From positions 124,001-188,000 of the forward strand of contig JAFGNT010000018.1 in NCBI GenBank assembly GCA_016926855.1: DNA of 64,000 nt, written 5' to 3'. This document shows positions 1,302 to 26,900 of this stretch, one piece after another. Both the position numbers and the translations under genes were made by a program. How positions within the stretch are numbered: the first letter of the stretch is position 1; each line of letters opens with the position of its first letter. The notes below the pieces were generated by a model. That model was not told where the DNA came from. It was given only the letters and a program-made list of their open reading frames with translations, and ran no database searches. Source of the DNA: Methanomicrobiaceae archaeon (GTDB taxonomy: Archaea; Halobacteriota; Methanomicrobia; Methanomicrobiales; Methanomicrobiaceae).

Positions 1302-2101
1302 TCGAACAAATACCCCCGGGAATAAGCATTGGTACGATGAAGGCATCAATGGAATGGCTTTATTCCCATACGTCCCGGTTCATAGGCGTAGTTTTCGTGC
1401 GCATTCAGGACGGAAAAGGGTACATTCTTATCCAGCGTGGTGAGCCGCTTATCTATTATTTCATATCCGGGACGAAGACACTGAATGGCCATGCTGCACG
1501 CGAATATTTTGCCAATGAACGCTTGATCGACTTCGACATGCGAAAATACACCCCAGGGGAATTCGAAAACGCACTTGCACTCTCCCGGGGCGAATCGGTG
1601 GAGCCGCTGAAGCTGTCCACGGGAGAAGAAGTTCCTCCGGGAGATGTAAGCGATTCTATAGGCCCTGCACCGGAGCCCGCGACGGACGTGGATACCGGCA
1701 CTACCCCTCCGCCAGTCACTCCAATTCCTGAGAGTAAAACGGCAGCACCTCCCGCGAAGGCACCCGAACCCGGGGAACTTGCCGAACTCCGTCATATTCT
1801 GACATGGCCCGGTGTGAAAGCGGCTTCAATCTTTGAAAACGGGCTGAACCTCCATGCAATTGGGGAACATTCACTGGACGGGGCGGTCGCGATCGGAGAG
1901 GATGCCGTCAGGGCTGCCGGCGCCCTGTCATCGGTTCTCGGCCGTGGCAGGTTTATTCAGATGACAATCGAACTGCCGTCCGGCACGATCATTATCACCC
2001 CGTACCGGAATACAATGCTCTGTATCCTGACAACCGACCAGGTACGCCTCGGGCAGATTAGAAACATCCTGCAGGACATTCAGCAGCGCCTGCAGGACTG
2101 A
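1298..2101 (+). CDS. Two-domain protein: DUF2226-like N-terminus and roadblock-like C-terminus
   Basis: A 267-residue protein in three parts. Residues 1-90 resemble archaeal DUF2226-type domains (MKASMEWLYSHTSRFIGVVF onward). Residues about 108-155 are a Pro/Ala/Thr-rich linker. Residues about 157-267 form a second roadblock-like domain (LAELRHILTWPGVKAASIFE and later GRFIQMTIELPSG). The ATG overlaps the stop of the preceding roadblock gene. A heteromeric complex of the two roadblock domains is a reasonable inference. No GTPase is encoded next to them. The N-terminal assignment is weaker than the C-terminal one. Confidence 0.6.
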   Translation: MIEQIPPGISIGTMKASMEWLYSHTSRFIGVVFVRIQDGKGYILIQRGEPLIYYFISGTKTLNGHAAREYFANERLIDFDMRKYTPGEFENALALSRGESVEPLKLSTGEEVPPGDVSDSIGPAPEPATDVDTGTTPPPVTPIPESKTAAPPAKAPEPGELAELRHILTWPGVKAASIFENGLNLHAIGEHSLDGAVAIGEDAVRAAGALSSVLGRGRFIQMTIELPSGTIIITPYRNTMLCILTTDQVRLGQIRNILQDIQQRLQD

Positions 2102-2178
2102 AAGCAGGGAAAAGGTCCGAACACACCCGGCGGATAATCGCCACACATAAAAGCACGAAATGCCATTTTTTTATACCT

Positions 2179-2967
2179 ATGATTGAACCGCTGGTCGTCG
2201 CAGCCATCGCGATAGGAATAACGCTCCTGTACGCATCATACCGCGACATCAGGGAACGCCGTGTTCCGTTCAGGACATGGTACCCGATGCTTGCCATAGC
2301 GGTACCCATGGCGGCATGGACATACATCTCTCTCATTGGCCACGATTTCCGGCTTGCATCAGGCTATATCATCCTGGTTATCGTTTTTTCCGTGCTCTTT
2401 TATGTCCTTGCAGCGTACCTGCACCTCTTCGGCGGTGCAGATGCATGGGCGCTCATATTCATCACCGCTTGCATCCCGCTCTTTCCCGTGGAACCGTACT
2501 TCGGATATCCGGCCCTCGCGTTTTTTCCCTTGTCGGTCTTGGTCAATGCGATGCTGCTCAACCTCGCAACACCGTTTGGCATCTTCATCATGAACGTCCT
2601 GAAGGGCAACAGAGCACCATTTCCGTACATGTTTATCGGATTCCCTGTCGGGGGAGCAAATATCGAAGATTCATTCGGCTTCATCATCGAAGAGTTTTCC
2701 GAGGATAACGGACACCTGAAACGCAGGTTTATCTCCATCCCCGACGCAATCCGGAGGATGGTGGCAGGCCAGAGGCGAATGTATACGCGGGATCTGAAAC
2801 GGTTTCCCGAACAATATACTCGCGAACTCGCATTGTACCGGAAGGCAGGGATGGTCTGGATATCTTACGGAGTCCCGTTCATCATCCCCATAACCGCCGG
2901 ATTTATCACGGCGATCTTCATGGGAGACATGCTGTATATGATACTGACAATAGTCACAGGAGTTTGA
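2179..2967 (+). CDS. Archaeal prepilin/preflagellin peptidase (A24 family)
   Basis: A 262-residue polytopic membrane protein with the two aspartates of type IV prepilin peptidases: one in [11 protein letters not shown] (about residue 22) and one in FGGADAWAL (GGAD, about 85-88). Enzymes of this family cut class III signal peptides of archaeal pilins and archaellins. About six hydrophobic segments are visible, with a charged cytoplasmic loop near residues 175-220 that may be lineage specific. It ends two bases before hisI. The pilin-like protein at 9.75 kb is a possible substrate. Whether it serves archaella, pili or both cannot be decided here. Confidence 0.85.
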
Positions 2968-2968
2968 T

Positions 2969-3337
2969 ATGATTTCACTGCATTTCGATCACGGACTGAT
3001 ACCTGTCATCGCACAGGATTCCACGACACAGGAGATCCTCATGCTCGCCTATGCGAACAGCGAGGCGGTGGAGCTTACCCGTTCAACCGGATTTGCCCAT
3101 TACTACAGCAGGAGCAGGAAGAAACTCTGGAAAAAGGGTGAAGAGAGCGGCCATACCCAGCGGGTCGTGCGCATCATCACGGACTGCGATGAAGACGCCC
3201 TGATTTATCAGATTGAGCAGAAGGGAGCCGCCTGCCATACAGGGTACCGGAGCTGTTTTTACCGGACGCTGGAAGGCGAAATTATTGCAGAAAAAGTGTT
3301 TGATCCGGACGAGGTATATGCTAATAAACCAGAATGA
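2969..3337 (+). CDS. hisI: Phosphoribosyl-AMP cyclohydrolase
   Basis: A 122-residue cytosolic enzyme of histidine biosynthesis that opens the purine ring of phosphoribosyl-AMP. It has the typical signature: [11 protein letters not shown] near the start, the [18 protein letters not shown] block, [13 protein letters not shown] as the metal-binding acidic segment, and the [14 protein letters not shown] cysteine motif. Length equals that of free-standing HisI; no HisE domain is fused. ATG at 2969 follows GGAG at 2959-2962 and lies just after the prepilin peptidase stop, so it is probably read from the same message. Confidence 0.95.
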
Positions 3338-15008: not shown

Positions 15009-15082
15009 GCCCCTGTAGCTCAGTCTGGGAGAGCGCCAGACTGAAGATCTGGTTGTCCCCGGTTCAAATCCGGGCGGGGGCA
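15009..15082 (+). tRNA. tRNA-Phe (GAA)
   Basis: The acceptor stem GCCCCTG pairs with CGGGGGC (one T-G pair), with discriminator A. The anticodon stem CCAGA pairs with TCTGG around CTGAAGA, giving anticodon GAA. The T arm CCCGG-TTCAAAT-CCGGG is standard. No CCA is encoded and no intron is seen. Confidence 0.95.
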
Positions 15083-15182: not shown

Positions 15183-16523
15183 ATGGCTTTCTTCAGCGAC
15201 CCGATCCTCGTCATCAACCTGATACTCTGCGTTGTCATCGTCATTGTGAGTTACTGGAGTGCCGTGAGAATTGGAAGCACAATCCCGCTCTATATCGGCA
15301 CAGCATTCGGTTTTTTCGGCATTTCACATTTCATGACGATAATCGGACTGCGGGAACAGCTCGAAACGTTTCTCATCATCATCCGCACGGCTGCCTACGT
15401 ACTCGCAGCAGTCGGGGTTTTTGAAACAGGCCGGAGCATCATCCAACGAAAACACGTGGAAGTCTCGCTTCGTGACAACGAGAAAAAATACCGGGCGCTT
15501 TTTGAAGCTGAAATGGATTCCATATTCGTTATCGATACAAAATCCAACCAATTCATGGACGTCAATGCCGCAGCGTCGAAATTATACGGGTATAGCCGCG
15601 ACGAATTTCTGAACATCGGGATCACCGATATATCCAACGAGCCCGAAAAATCGCTTCAGGTGGTGAAAAATTCCCAGGAAATCATAATTCCGTTGCGGTA
15701 CCACAGGAAAAAGGACGGGACAATTTTCCCGGTTGAGGTAGCAGCCAACTCATTCATCCTGAACGGACGCACCATAATTGTCGCTGCAATCAGGGATATA
15801 TCCGAGCGAAAAAGATATGAGGGAGCACTGCAGCGGGTAAGCCGAAAGCTTGGCCTACTCGCGAAAATCACCCGGACAGATCTTGAAAACCAGATTTTCA
15901 TCCTGAGAGGATTCCTTGCGCTTCTCGCAGAAAAGGCCGATGACAGTGAGCTAAAGGACTTTATCGCAAATATCATGTCATCAGTTGAAACAATGGCCAC
16001 ATCAGTGGAATTCACCAAAAACTATCAGGATCTCGGTGAAAAACCACCGGTATGGCAGGATGTTCAGCAGATATTTCTGCTGGCGATTTCGCATCTCGAC
16101 ATGAGCGCTATAAACCGTGAGATCAGGATTGAGGGGATCGAGATCTATGCGGACTCGCTTCTGGAAAAGGCACTTCAGAACATGGTTGCCTGCGCCATCC
16201 GCCAGGGGGGTGACGTCCACAGGATCCTCTTCACGAGCGGCGTTTCCGGCGCCCTGAGTTTAATCTATGAACAGGATGGAGAAGGTTTTGCAGAAATCCG
16301 GAAAGAGGATATTTTCAGCCCGGATTACTCCCGGGATCGCGATCTGTTTATGGTTCGTGAAATCCTGGACATCACGGGAATCTCAATACACGAAACCGGC
16401 ACGCGGGATGGGGGCATCCGGTTCGAGATTAGTGTTCCCGAAGGGCTTTACCGCACCAGCGGCGGAGAGGACAGAATTCCACCATTTCACACGGAAGCCA
16501 CGGGAGGAGTCTCCTCAGAGTGA
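15183..16523 (+). CDS. PAS sensor protein with degenerate histidine-kinase core
   Basis: A 446-residue membrane sensor. About three hydrophobic helices occupy residues 8-85, a PAS domain residues 100-212 (SIFVIDTKSNQFMDVNAAA and IRDISERKR), and a kinase-like region follows. In the related Methanomicrobiales kinases the dimerisation helix reads about ITRHDxxNQ; here it is KITRTDLENQ, so the phosphorylated His is replaced by Thr. The ATP-binding part lacks the N-box Asn (MVACAIRQGG) and the Gly-rich lid (DRDLFMVREIL). It is therefore probably a pseudokinase or allosteric scaffold. No response regulator is adjacent. Confidence 0.82.
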   Translation: MAFFSDPILVINLILCVVIVIVSYWSAVRIGSTIPLYIGTAFGFFGISHFMTIIGLREQLETFLIIIRTAAYVLAAVGVFETGRSIIQRKHVEVSLRDNEKKYRALFEAEMDSIFVIDTKSNQFMDVNAAASKLYGYSRDEFLNIGITDISNEPEKSLQVVKNSQEIIIPLRYHRKKDGTIFPVEVAANSFILNGRTIIVAAIRDISERKRYEGALQRVSRKLGLLAKITRTDLENQIFILRGFLALLAEKADDSELKDFIANIMSSVETMATSVEFTKNYQDLGEKPPVWQDVQQIFLLAISHLDMSAINREIRIEGIEIYADSLLEKALQNMVACAIRQGGDVHRILFTSGVSGALSLIYEQDGEGFAEIRKEDIFSPDYSRDRDLFMVREILDITGISIHETGTRDGGIRFEISVPEGLYRTSGGEDRIPPFHTEATGGVSSE

Positions 16524-20343: not shown

Positions 20344-20548
20344 GGCCCGGTGAGGCAATCTTCCGGGGACAAGGGGATTGAGGGCCGTGGACATGTCCTT
20401 TGCGGATCCAAATACGGATAATTCCTGCAAACCAGCATAATACCTGCAAGAAAAACCACCTGATGCCTTTTTACTCGTCTATACCTCCGGGATTGCCAGC
20501 GTACAAACCTATAAATCGTCTCGTGATACGTCTCGGGTGGTGATGTGC

Positions 20549-22320
20549 ATGGATGCCTATGCCGGAAAGATATTGTACGGGGATCTGAACAAAAAAACCT
20601 GAAAAACCAACCCTGTCCGGAGGACCTCAAACGACTTTGTCTCGGAGGACGTGGATGCGGCGTAAAGAATATTTCAGACACGATGGACCCGTCAACCGAC
20701 CCGTTCAGTCCCGAAAACGTAGTTGTTATCGCCTCAGGCCCTCTGACAGGCACCGGAGTCCCACTCGGAAGCAGGTACGAGGTTATTACGAAATCCCCGC
20801 TCAATGGAACGCTGACATCCGCAAACAGCGGCGGGGTATTCGGGTGGAAGATGAAAAAAGCCGGATTCGACGCCATTGTGATTACCGGAAAGTCCGAAAC
20901 TCCCGTCTATCTCCTTCTTACAGACGGCGATGCCGAGATCATGGATGCAACGCCCTACTGGGGCATGAAAACCGGTGAGGCGACCGATGCCATCATACGG
21001 GACCTCGGGGACGCAGGCGCACGGATTTCCTGTATCGGCCCCGCAGATGAGAAGCTCAGCCGTATTGCATGCGTAATCAACGAGAAAACACGGGCGGCGG
21101 GACGCGGCGGCATTGGCGCTGTCCGGGGTTCCAAAAACCTCAAAGCCATTGCTGCGACAGGAACCCAAATCATTGCCGAAGCGGATGAAGAACGCTTTAA
21201 TTCCGTAAAGGAAGACTTCAGGAAGAAAATCACCGAGAACGGAATCGATCAGGCACTGCATCACTACGGCACCGCAGTCCTTGTCAATATCATCAATGAA
21301 AACTACATCCTTCCGACGAAGAACTTCCAGAGCGCCCATTTCACCGAGGCGGATAAAATATCCGGCGAGGAGATCGCAAAGACGATCCTGAAAAAGCCAA
21401 AAGGCTGCTATGCCTGCATTGTCCAGTGCGGACGTCTGACCGAAGTGGACGGCGTGACGAGTGAAGGGCCGGAATATGAGAGCGAATGGGCGTTCGGGGC
21501 GGACTGTGGAGTATCAGACGTTAAAAATATTACAAAAGCGAACTATCTCTGCAACGATCTCGGTCTGGACACCATTTCAACCGGGGCGACAATCGCCTGC
21601 CTGATGGAGATGGCCGAAAAAGGGTAAGTCAATTAGCCAATCCGGTTTGGTGACGGCAATGCAATGCTGGAGATGGTGAGAAAAATCGGATACCGTGAGG
21701 GCATCGGTGACGAACTTGCCGAGGGATCGTAACGGTTCGCTGAGGGACACGGGCATGCGGAACTCTCCATGAGCGTAAAAATGCAGGAGCTCCCTGCATA
21801 CGATCCACGGGGCCTGCAGGGACACGGCCTGCAGTACGCAACCTCGGTCCGCGGCGGTGACCATGTGTACGGATTCATGATCTCGCCAGAAATTCTCGGC
21901 TCCCCTGAGAAACTGGATCCCTATACGAGTGAAGGAAAGGCCGAATGGACTAAGATCTTCCAGGATCTCACCGCAGCGATTGACTCCAGCGGGATGTGCC
22001 TTTTTTCCTCCTTTGCACTCGATGCGGCAGACTATGCGAAAGCAATTGCCGCTGCGACGGGCATGAATATCGATGCACAGGAACTGCTCCGTATCGGAGA
22101 ACGCATCTGGAATATGCAGAAACTCTTCAACCTGAAGGTGGGATATACCAAAGAAAATGATACGCTCCCCCAAAGGTTCCTGACTGAACCGCTAAAGGAA
22201 GGAGCGCCCGCCGGGAGGGTGTGGGAACGCCAGCCGCTGCTGGATGAGTAGTACAGTGCCCGGGGATGGGACAGCGAGGGAGTGCCGACTCCTGAAAAAC
22301 GAGCCGAACTGGGGCTTTGA
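20549..22320 (+). pseudogene. Aldehyde (tungsten) ferredoxin oxidoreductase, multiply disrupted
   Basis: The reading, pieced together, is a full-length aldehyde ferredoxin oxidoreductase of about 590 codons. The start region (ATG 20549 after GGTGGTGA) reads AYAGKILYGDLNKK, then shifts frame at the seven-A run 20591-20597 into PCPEDLKRLCLGGRG. The pterin-binding KSPLNGTLTSANSGG and cluster ligands CYACIVQCG are present. In-frame stops follow: TAA 21625, TAG 21634, TAA 21730 and TAG 22249, and the family-typical sequence continues past each of them in the same frame (PIRFGDGNAML; RFAEGHGHAELSM; GWDSEGVPTPEKRAELGL) to TGA at 22318. It is followed by ThiF/MoeB and MoaD-like genes, the usual cofactor partners. 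Confidence 0.93.
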
Positions 22321-23378: not shown

Positions 23379-24551
23379 TCACGTCACGGCATACCATATG
23401 CGGTAGATGGCGTTCGCCCGGTCATCAGAGACGAGCAGAGCGCCGCCCGGCATTTCAAGGATATCGACGGATCGTCCCCAGGCCGGGAAGCCGTCCAGCC
23501 ACCCCTCGGCGAACGGTTCGTAGCTTTCGGCTTCATTTCCCGAAAGGCGCACCAGCGTAATCCGGTACCCGACGGGCACCGCACTATTCCAGGAGCCGTG
23601 TTCGGCGATGAATACCCGGTTCAGGGCGTCGGGATGAAACAGCGATCCGGTGTAAAAGGCCATTCCCAGTGGTGCGACGTGGGCACCGAGTTCAAGAACG
23701 GGGGGAGTCGTCGCCTCACAGGCATCAGGAGTCCCGATCTCCGGATCAGGGAGTGCTATTCCATGGCAGTACGGAAATCCGAAGTCCATTCCGGGGTTTG
23801 GTGCTCGGTTCAGTTCATCGGGAGGGAGAGCATCCCCAAGCCAGTCCCTGCCATTCTCAGTGAACCAGAATTCACCGGTCAGCGGGAGCCAGTCGAAACC
23901 GACGGTATTCCGAATCCCGGTAGCAAAGACCTCGCGCTCCGATCCGTCCGCTTTCATCCTGAGAATTGTTGAGAAGAGAACTCCCGGTGGGCGGCAGACA
24001 TTGCAGGGCGCCCCGACAGGCACATACAGGAGATCGTCCGGCCCGAAACCGGTATATTTCCACCCATGGTGCGGATTTTCCGGCTAATCGTCATAAATTG
24101 TGATGGGATCAGGTATTCCGGGCAGATGAGACCAGATATCATCATAACGGAGCATACGATTTACTTCCGACACGTAGAGTGCACCGTTCCGGACGGCGAC
24201 ACCATTGGGCATGTTCAGGTCATGAGCGATTACAACCGCATGGTCGGCATGGCCGTCCCCGTCCCGATCACGGATGGCGTAGACTGACCCTGCCCGGGTT
24301 CCGATATACAGTGTATTGTCCGGGCCGAGGGCAAGAGATCGTGCACCCGCAGGCGGATGGGCGTAGAGTTCACTGTGATAGCCGGGGGGAAGTCGGATCG
24401 AGTCAAAGGGAAGAGCCGCATCGTCCGTTGTGAGCGGAATCCAGGTACCCGTAATCTCGCCGGGCCCTTCGGCAGTAAGGGATGTCAGTGCAAACACGGC
24501 GATCGCACCGAGAATCAGCAGGGGCACAATCCATGACCATCGGGGCGCCAT
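23379..24551 (-). pseudogene. PQQ-type glucose/sorbosone dehydrogenase-like protein split by an amber codon
   Basis: The gene encodes 390 residues if an in-frame TAG at 24084-24086 is ignored. It begins with a hydrophobic signal or anchor segment (about residues 7-25), then a beta-propeller with repeats such as LALGPDNTLYIGTRAGSVY, GVAVRNGALYVSEVNRM and, after the stop, PHHGWKYTGFGPDDLLYVP and FTENGRDWLGD. The stop lies in the turn YDD-stop-PENPHHGW, where related proteins usually have Leu. A TATA-like CTTTATATTAA and a GGTGA site precede the start, so the signals are preserved. This looks like a recent single nonsense mutation in an exported sugar or alcohol dehydrogenase. Confidence 0.87.
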
Positions 24552-24715: not shown

Positions 24716-25078
24716 TCATGCAAACGGCTCAAGTGCCCGGCGCAGATCAGAGGGCAGAACCGGTTTTTCAAGTACGCCCACCACACCATCGGCGTACAGG
24801 GAAAATTCCTCGGGCCATATATGCTTTGCCGTAAACAGGAGCACGGGAATATCCTTCATTGCAGGATTTCCCCGAAGCCGTTTCAGGAACTCCCAGCCGT
24901 TTAAGGGCGACATCATAATGTCGAGGAGAATAAGCCTCGGCTGTTCCTTTTCAAGCATTTCAAGTGCTTCCAGCGCATTGTTCACCATAATCGGCTCCCA
25001 TCCAAGGCGGGGAAGGAGAAGCTTCATCACTTCAAGAGTCGGGAGGTCATCATCGATAACCATGACCTTACGACTCAT
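24716..25078 (-). CDS. Single-domain response regulator
   Basis: A 120-residue CheY-like receiver domain with no output domain. The acidic pair is in VMVIDDDLPT (about residues 8-11), the phosphorylated Asp in RLILLDIMM (about 54), and the conserved Thr and Lys in LLFTAKHIW (Thr about 83) and VLEKPV (Lys about 105). It overlaps the upstream histidine kinase by 11 bases, so the two are translated together and almost certainly form a phosphorelay pair. Output must be through protein-protein contact. Confidence 0.93.
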   Translation of the reverse strand: MSRKVMVIDDDLPTLEVMKLLLPRLGWEPIMVNNALEALEMLEKEQPRLILLDIMMSPLNGWEFLKRLRGNPAMKDIPVLLFTAKHIWPEEFSLYADGVVGVLEKPVLPSDLRRALEPFA

Positions 25079-26900
25079 CGCACACCACCTTCGGCAACTT
25101 CACGGTAAATGTGCTTCCAATCCCGGGTTCACTCTCCACGATGATCTTCCCCTTATGCATATCAACATATTTTTGTGCAATTGAGAGCCCGAGGCCGATT
25201 CTTCCGTACTCGCGGGCGAGTTTCTCCGAATCAGCCAGATAAAACGGTTCGAAGATATTATTGAGCGATTCCTGTGCGATGCCTATCCCATTATCCCTGA
25301 TTGAAATGTAGTGATACTGCTCATCGTCCCGGTATAAAACCTCCACGATTCGTGGGGGCTCGCTGAACCGGACTGCATTTGAGATGATTCCATCAAGAAT
25401 CTGGTAGATGCGGTCACGGTCGGCACAGATCATCAAATCCGGTGACATCCGGCACTTGATTTTAGCCTGAAGATCGTAGCCGCCAATCCTGGTCACCGTA
25501 CTGATGAGCTGCCGGAGTGAAAAATCGGTCAGGTTGAGGTTAATCTTGCAGGAGTCCATGATACCGAGCTCCAGCATGCGGTCCACAACCCTCCGTTCGC
25601 GCTCCACGTTTTCAAGGCAGAGGCGCAGGAGCTTTACCGTTTCCGAATCCAGAGCATAACTGGACGGTTCTTCAAGAATCAGGTGGAGATACCCGAGAAT
25701 CGGCTGGAGCGGTGTCCTCAGCTCATGTGCGGCAGTGTTGATAAAGTTGCGCCACCGGTCGAGTTCGCGTTCCAGCTGCATGTACGTCAGATCCTGTTGG
25801 AGACCGTCCGTGACGTCACGCATCGTTCCGATAACGCCAATCGTTTTACCGGCACGGTCAAGCACCGGGCCGAGGAGCGTGGAAAAATTCCGCTCAGATC
25901 CATTCAATGTGACGTCAAACTCGTAATTGATCGTCTCGCCATTCTGGAACACCTCGCGGATCCGCCGGCTGTGGGCTTCCGCAACGATATCCGGAAAGAA
26001 ATCCGCGAGTGTTTTTCCGATCATGTTCACGGGATCAATCCCGAATTCTTCCGCCTTCGCCCAGTGGAACTGCAGGAACCGTCCGGAGCTGTCCTGCATA
26101 AAGATAAGATCCTGCGATGAATTAACAAGAGACTGGAGCTGTTCTTTTGCCTCGATCAGATTGGTCTCTTCCTGTTCAATCTTTGTGATGTCAAAAACCG
26201 TGCATTCGATAAAGGACTGTTCAGCAGTTTTTTTACAAGAAAAAAGTACGGTTTTTATATTTCCAGACTTCCCGAGGAACCGCATCCGACGTTCGAACAC
26301 CGGTCCCTTACTATCGCATTCCTGCAGTACATTCACGCCGTCCTGCGGATTTTCCCAGAGCTCCCCGGCCGGGAGGCCTCGCAGTTCCAAAGGATTGTAT
26401 CCCAATATATCGCCGAGTTTCTGGTTCGCATCGACAATTTTTGTATTTGTGTCTTTGATGAGAAACATCCCGGCCTCGGCGTTTTTAAACACGTTCCAAT
26501 ACTTAACATTTAGCAGGCCGCCCTCTTTGGCAAGCTGTGTCGTCGCGATGACGACCCAGAGGTACATCGCCGCATTCACTCCGAATATGAACGGATCCAA
26601 AACAGTTCCGGTGAAATAAAAATACGAAGTAATCGCCAGAAATGCAGCCACCAGCAATATCGTGCATTGCAATCCGTATCGCGGATACCAGAGAGATATG
26701 AGGAGAATCGGGATGTAATACAATTGAGGAAAGAGAAACATCAGCGCCGGGTACATCGCGCCGACAGGAACCGTCAAGGAGAACACGGTCACCAACACGG
26801 AAACCATGATAAAACATGCAATGACCCAGATTTTTACCAGATCGGTCTCCTTTAGACCAAGATCGCGCAGTGATTGCGACGGAAAAACCCCGGAAGGCAT
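25068..26900 (-). CDS. Membrane histidine kinase with two PAS domains
   Basis: A 610-residue sensor kinase. About five hydrophobic helices occupy residues 20-125. PAS domain 1 (about 137-255, AGMFLIKDTNTKIVDANQKL) and PAS domain 2 (about 262-380, QDLIFMQDSSGRFLQF) follow. The dimerisation helix has the phosphorylated His in AAHELRTPLQPILGYL (about 393). The ATPase domain has the N box IISNAVRFSEPP, the G1 box DNGIGI and the G2 box GRIGLGLSIAQ, and all appear intact. It is followed by its response regulator with an 11-base overlap. Confidence 0.93.
   Translation of the reverse strand: MPSGVFPSQSLRDLGLKETDLVKIWVIACFIMVSVLVTVFSLTVPVGAMYPALMFLFPQLYYIPILLISLWYPRYGLQCTILLVAAFLAITSYFYFTGTVLDPFIFGVNAAMYLWVVIATTQLAKEGGLLNVKYWNVFKNAEAGMFLIKDTNTKIVDANQKLGDILGYNPLELRGLPAGELWENPQDGVNVLQECDSKGPVFERRMRFLGKSGNIKTVLFSCKKTAEQSFIECTVFDITKIEQEETNLIEAKEQLQSLVNSSQDLIFMQDSSGRFLQFHWAKAEEFGIDPVNMIGKTLADFFPDIVAEAHSRRIREVFQNGETINYEFDVTLNGSERNFSTLLGPVLDRAGKTIGVIGTMRDVTDGLQQDLTYMQLERELDRWRNFINTAAHELRTPLQPILGYLHLILEEPSSYALDSETVKLLRLCLENVERERRVVDRMLELGIMDSCKINLNLTDFSLRQLISTVTRIGGYDLQAKIKCRMSPDLMICADRDRIYQILDGIISNAVRFSEPPRIVEVLYRDDEQYHYISIRDNGIGIAQESLNNIFEPFYLADSEKLAREYGRIGLGLSIAQKYVDMHKGKIIVESEPGIGSTFTVKLPKVVCDES

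Follow-up and report, generated by a model that had tools for sequence, protein, structure and literature searches.

DivL of Caulobacter combines a PAS sensor with a kinase fold described as having neither kinase nor phosphatase activity; its receiver partner is DivK, and it illustrates that a dead kinase can act through receiver binding (PMC4211667). A second dead kinase, the pseudokinase ChrS from an evolved strain of Corynebacterium glutamicum, is described as acting with its active paralogue HrrS, via heterodimers (PMC9491836). Among methanogens, the MA_type 2 kinases of Methanosarcina acetivorans do not have an H-box; the study that defines them describes RdmS as a cytosolic protein that binds and hydrolyses ATP and has no autokinase activity, and it revises as unspecific the Tyr autophosphorylation under oxidising conditions which had been reported earlier (Georgiev et al. 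2025, PMC11784639). Finally, nonenzymatic archaeal proteins resembling histidine kinases, found mainly in Archaeoglobi and Methanomicrobia, were predicted to have no kinase activity (Galperin et al. 2018, PMC5847659).

We analyzed a gene for a sensor protein in a 64,000-nucleotide stretch of DNA (hereafter, the window) from a Methanomicrobiaceae archaeon, and we compared it with each of these systems as they have been described. Like the MA_type 2 proteins, it is a methanogen kinase-like protein without the phospho-accepting His, but its H-box helix is still recognizable. RdmS is cytosolic and binds ATP, whereas the sensor protein is predicted to be membrane-anchored and has none of the ATP-site residues, a loss that argues against ATP binding or hydrolysis of the MA_type 2 kind; the comparison with RdmS is one of descriptions. 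It is the reverse of the proteins of Galperin et al., which keep the His and have no recognizable HATPase domain, because here the fold of that domain is kept and the His is lost. With DivL it shares a PAS domain joined to a non-catalytic kinase fold. ChrS is likewise catalytically dead but stems from a laboratory frameshift, not from a long-maintained family. Histidine-less methanogen kinases have already been reported (MA_type 2, Methanosarcina). In Methanomicrobiales, neither histidine-less kinases nor a Ser-His motif were described among the literature matches listed (titles and abstract openings), which is weak evidence of absence from a search that left the subscription literature mostly uncovered. 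What is new here is a large pseudo-histidine-kinase clade, seen in one order in this sample, whose members share a Ser-His motif, and a sensor protein within it that retains none of the four ATP-site residues.

Architecture and catalytic residues of the sensor protein

The sensor gene begins 100 nt downstream of a tRNA-Phe gene (15009-15082), in a draft genome (G000) of 35 contigs that is 89% complete, and its 446 codons form a reading frame with an ATG start and no interruption (Table 1). An AlphaFold model computed from a 75-row alignment (mean pLDDT 90.9) predicted three transmembrane helices, a PAS domain, a DHp hairpin (helices 207-251 and 255-282) and a CA domain, which is the order of the histidine-kinase fold, with the helices and strands of the DHp and CA parts in order. 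Pfam recognized PAS_9 above its cut-off, and HATPase_c at 18.4 bits fell below the curated cut-off of 26.4. Among the VIA-align 2 matches listed were the MprB CA domain (Z 17.7), ZraS (Z 17.6, 3.0 Å over 218 residues), and the pseudokinase DivL (4q20_B; Z 16.7, 6.5 Å over 210 residues). The best 50 rows of Foldseek and of VIA-align 2 were mostly sensor kinases, the remainder being largely PAS proteins and phytochromes, and NifL (9qq6_A) was present among the Foldseek matches listed. In the model, then, a DHp hairpin is followed by an HATPase-type alpha/beta domain, and the predicted structure is that of a pseudo-histidine kinase, in which the kinase fold is retained and the catalytic residues are gone.

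Table 1. Features of the sensor gene, the receiver gene at 24.7 kb and the kinase gene overlapping it, and two further sets of loci.
Feature	Position (or loci)	Strand	Basis or remark
Pseudo-histidine-kinase sensor gene, 446 aa	15183-16523	+	Open reading frame, ATG start; AlphaFold model
N-terminal three-helix membrane module, residues 1-93	15183-15461	+	Helices 7-30, 34-53, 61 onward (AlphaFold model)
PAS domain, residues about 100-216	15480-15830	+	Pfam PAS_9 1.6e-11, PAS 2.8e-7
DHp-like two-helix hairpin, residues 207-282	15801-16028	+	AlphaFold model
Thr232 codon, phospho-His position	15876-15878	+	Alignment to canonical-type cores
CA/HATPase-like domain, residues 290-425, ATP-site residues gone	16050-16457	+	Pfam match below cut-off; model
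Ser303-His304 codons, after CA helix 294-302	16089-16094	+	Clade-invariant motif
Cys337 codon, N-box Asn position	16191-16193	+	Alignment; Asn in 47/47 canonical-type cores
Gln364 codon, G1 Asp position	16272-16274	+	Alignment
RDRD, residues 384-387, replacing G2 glycines	16332-16343	+	Alignment
Receiver gene	24716-25078	-	Pairs with its own kinase gene
PAS-PAS-HisKA-HATPase kinase gene, ordinary	25068-26900	-	Overlaps receiver gene
TRHD clade with Thr-His, Ser-His or Ile-His	L239, L240, L241, L285, L287-L296, L298, L303		
Stand-alone membrane module loci	L058, L061, L067-L069, L071-L074, L077-L079, L081-L083		

The original prediction, made from the letters of this DNA, had been that the gene is an uninterrupted PAS sensor of normal fold and length whose kinase core has lost its H-box His, its N-box Asn and its glycine lid. 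The intact frame and the predicted fold bear out the first part, and alignment to canonical-type cores confirmed the second. The H-box helix reads LLAKITRTDLENQIF, and Thr232 falls in the alignment column of the His in the [IV]TRHD box carried by nine other TRHD-type cores of the same genome, whose 18 listed cores or fragments otherwise belong to other kinase types. The N-box reads LQNMVACAIRQG, with Cys337 in place of the Asn, and the G2 stretch reads SRDRDLF, without a GxG. To these three of the four sites the alignment added a fourth, the G1 Asp, replaced by Gln364 in EQDGEG. At the same positions, the 47 canonical-type cores have His in 44, Asn in 47, Asp in 46, and the two glycines in 46 and 47. 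With the phospho-His, the N-box Asn, the G1 Asp, and the G2 glycines all gone, canonical ATP binding by the sensor protein is not to be expected, nor is phosphorylation of its H-box. DivL has a Tyr at the His position and DivK as its receiver partner; the sensor protein differs in having Thr232 there and no adjoining receiver gene.

Elsewhere in the window there are two broken genes. One of them, an aldehyde ferredoxin oxidoreductase gene (20545-22248, + strand), which probably starts in another frame, contains in-frame stops at 21625 (TAA), 21634 (TAG), and 21730 (TAA), with homology to the enzyme on both sides of the stops. A gene resembling glucose/sorbosone dehydrogenase (GSDH; 23382-24551, - strand) contains a single in-frame TAG at 24086, and its frame is open on both sides.

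The histidine-less clade and its Ser-His motif

Phylogenetic analysis placed the sensor protein in a clade of histidine-less cores. In a quick tree of 156 cores with the H column masked, 47 canonical-type cores separated from 109 others (SH-aLRT 97), and only 2 of the 109 had an H-box His. In a more careful tree of 83 rows, comprising all 19 TR-x rows, all 18 TRHD-[STI]H rows, and random samples of 30 of the 114 TF-type and 16 of the 122 canonical rows, the split between canonical and histidine-less cores was supported at 100/98; after masking of eleven diagnostic columns (H, N, G1, G2, and Ser-His, plus columns 25, 33, and 106) it was supported at 99/99, with a bootstrap that had not fully settled. 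The sensor protein was on the histidine-less side in all three trees, on a long branch (1.01-1.08 changes per column), and its highest plain identity in the masked tree was to a canonical core (L232, 42%). Its closer placement is tentative: it grouped with a TR-x-DL subgroup of 18 other rows (L306, L309, L310, L313-L317, L320, L321, L324-L331) at 94/82 in the careful tree and at 55/27 after the diagnostic columns were masked. Since the same loss is the pattern of the whole clade, the missing His of the sensor protein is more than chance.

We then considered a larger set of 134 members defined by Ser-His, a pair of residues that follows the first CA helix, leaving out three Ser-His rows with TRHD and an intact G2 (L239, L277, L292). 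The original prediction had looked to conservation of the Thr at the H-box, which did not hold up: the position is Gln in 51 members, Asn in 18, Thr in only 17, Ser in 11, Lys in 10, Glu in 8, Arg and Asp in 7 each, His in 3, and Ala and Met in 1 each (His in 6/137 if the three rows are included), and what is conserved instead is the Ser-His pair elsewhere in the core. The four ATP-site residues are retained to very different degrees, with all four present in 70 members, three in 35, two in 22, one in 5, and none in 2, one of which is the sensor protein; among canonical TRHD cores, 113/118 have all four. Georgiev et al. (2025) propose that MA_type 2 proteins (RdmS, MsmS) are protein kinases for another substrate, and the 70 members with complete ATP sites would suit such a role, as would RdmS itself, described in that study as an ATP-binding and ATP-hydrolysing protein with no autokinase activity (PMC11784639). 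Because the sensor protein has lost all four residues, this proposal may fit its relatives but hardly the sensor protein, for which we regard it as very improbable.

The Ser-His pair was present in 109/109 tree-defined members, the sensor protein included (Ser303-His304). At the same columns, none of the 47 canonical-type cores had Ser-His or Thr-His, and two had a lone His at the second column. It was also found in seven members with at most one of the four ATP-site residues, within the set that Ser-His itself defines. The 109 rows had been drawn from matches to the sensor core and to an eight-row profile in which every row has Ser-His, so the invariance could partly be an effect of the search. 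As a counter-check for this bias we took 93 of the 94 HATPase places of one genome, G127 (C2:1498544 was left out). Eighty-five cores could be aligned, 65 of them at ≥190 bits: 54 had the H-box His, 8 had Ser-His and no His, and 3 had neither, so that all 8 Ser-His cores were without the H-box His. One TRHD core of this genome (L277) showed Ser-His, in a gapped stretch, under a mixed model and not under a canonical model.

A separate 16-row clade that groups with the canonical kinases and has an intact TRHD box carries Thr-His (13 rows), Ser-His (2), or Ile-His (1) in the corresponding position of the CA domain. Ser-His is therefore not simply a replacement for the H-box, and we regard that idea as weakened. 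A more specific version would have the phospho-chemistry relocated, with Ser-His receiving a phosphoryl group in trans from a partner kinase in place of the H-box. The occurrence of the pair in every tree-defined member and the missing His in all eight Ser-His cores of G127 are what such a relocation would produce, but 15 of the 16 rows with an intact TRHD box also have Thr-His or Ser-His, and the three other histidine-less cores of G127 do not have the pair. The end of a CA helix is not known as an acceptor site, and we consider the relocation decidedly unlikely. The invariant Ser-His is the best candidate for part of a working surface that the clade would have retained.

Within the sample, the clade looks confined to one order, Methanomicrobiales. 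Of the 392 genomes sampled from the phylum, the profile matched 24 at E 1e-30, all of them listed as the source genome itself or as belonging to its family or order. A more permissive search at E 1e-12 of 80 genomes, 79 of them outside the order, gave matches at eight places in five genomes, and all eight had an intact TRHD box and no Ser-His. Two other kinase types that lack the His, TYQD and TRQD, are also without Ser-His (L247 and L265 of G127; L144, L153, and L155), and the His therefore seems to have been lost more than once among these kinases. The best explanation that we can offer, and one that is probably right, includes a clade of histidine-kinase-like proteins in which the phospho-accepting His was lost first, with the loss of parts of the ATP site following in many members.

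Maintenance or decay of the sensor gene

A kinase that has lost its catalytic residues could be maintained for another function, as originally predicted for this gene, or it could have lately become non-functional and be heading toward a pseudogene. The sensor gene is without a close orthologue among the genomes searched, so our dN/dS values come from its clade relatives. Fifty-five pairs of Ser-His rows with cores 72-99.5% alike, which share rows and are not independent of one another, gave 51 finite values, all between 0.066 and 0.395, and the pair L237/L238, which retains one of the four ATP-site residues, gave 0.076. Thus, relatives without the His are under purifying selection. Thirty-seven columns show ≥90% conservation across the remaining 133 members; the sensor protein itself retains 35 of them, and the median member retains 36.

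The other genome of the genus (88% complete) contained no match to the membrane module and no match to the core at 1e-60; two core matches appeared at 1e-45, and the one examined (L038) has an intact His. With no orthologue in the genus at these thresholds, we had to judge conservation from relatives further away. The missing orthologue is one of the points consistent with recent decay, together with the long branch of the sensor protein, the presence of two other broken genes in the window, and a third-position GC of 0.58, a little under the range of six other measured genes (0.60-0.69). Set against these are the intact frame, the clade-conserved columns that the sensor protein retains, and the purifying selection on relatives that are equally without the His, and we consider recent decay unlikely. 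Hence the predicted maintenance of a non-catalytic sensor is supported through its clade, by the relatives and the conserved columns.

Possible partners and output of the sensor protein

We think it probable that the product of the sensor gene is a PAS receptor anchored in the membrane, whose output is a maintained pseudokinase acting by protein contact. The three-helix membrane module, the PAS domain, or both would sense a signal and shift the DHp/CA part, from which the signal would leave by protein contact, with the protein serving as a PAS-driven adaptor. The loss of all four catalytic positions from a core whose predicted fold is kept supports this reading, and DivL and ChrS are precedents for mechanisms of this kind. 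The most likely partner would be another PAS kinase, in a hetero-oligomer, or a receiver domain docking on the DHp hairpin.

In the window, no kinase or receiver gene adjoins the sensor gene, which is therefore an orphan. The receiver gene at 24.7 kb had been suggested as encoding a partner, and we found no support for this pairing, as it overlaps by 11 nt an intact HisKA-type kinase gene, whose product is the likely partner of that receiver. Pairing with another kinase, the other partner that had been suggested, is possible and is supported for a subgroup only. Among 20 clade genes at 24 TR-x-DL loci, some of them cut by contig ends, six overlap or abut a same-strand kinase gene with an intact His (L315, L316 twice, L317, L320, and L324; the L316 gene at 1430-3190 itself retains its His), and because these include orthologous loci of related genomes, the independent arrangements are fewer. 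At L315 (1721-3865), L317 (390-2159), and L320 (994-3138), in three genomes with one genus code, the intact-His kinase gene directly follows the histidine-less gene, with ends overlapping or abutting. In a larger set (L114-L193), a kinase-like neighbor was found at 5 of 80 loci, which we estimate to be about the chance level for a kinase-rich genome; three of the five were partial matches to another kinase type, one was a histidine-less TRQD core, and one was an intact-His core. We therefore rejected a general kinase-operon linkage of the clade.

A dead kinase module could also do without kinase pairing, if, in the manner of DivL, it bound a (phosphorylated) REC domain and passed the signal backwards or sideways. 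The structural matches listed for the sensor protein include DivL, and the 16 REC matches in its own genome mean that candidate partners exist; no REC gene adjoins the sensor gene, though, and the nearest receiver in the window is the one whose gene overlaps that of its own kinase. We consider a receiver sensor of this kind doubtful, and we continue to favor the contact-signaling adaptor.

The membrane module offers a separate view of possible partners. Of 199 genomes sampled from the order, 47 have a homologous three-helix module, either fused or stand-alone. Where it stands alone as a small protein, a STAS-like gene is nearby in 15 of 17 loci, compared with 0/12 loci in which the module is part of a longer protein and 0/167 other kinase loci. 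Two STAS-like ORFs were found in one stretch of G127 (L246). Pfam confirmed two of the STAS-like ORFs as STAS; it also gave one stand-alone module a weak DUF5985 match, below cut-off. We found no STAS match in the source genome assembly (89% complete), and a STAS protein is for this reason not favored as the partner of the sensor protein.

More tentatively, we consider it possible, short of likely, that Ser-His is the new functional site of a kinase-derived signaling family. Kinases of this methanogen order would have been converted repeatedly into receptors that do not phosphorylate and that signal through a conserved Ser-His surface of the CA domain, serving as a hetero-oligomer interface or as a relocated phospho-acceptor; in the sensor protein the pair would have outlived the whole ATP site and been combined with a membrane module which, at other loci, occurs by itself with a STAS-domain gene nearby. 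If this is true, the sensor protein is an end point of the conversion from phospho-relay to purely allosteric signaling.

Among the PAS kinases of methanogen genomes are many that annotation would label histidine kinases, and in G127, which was sampled almost completely, the phospho-His is missing from 11 of the 65 cores of this kinase type. Should these be maintained pseudokinases, a considerable share of the two-component signaling predicted for such genomes would involve no phospho-transfer. The clade ranges by degrees from members with a complete ATP site to members with no ATP-site residue left, and through its one invariant motif, the role of a kinase fold after catalysis may become approachable.
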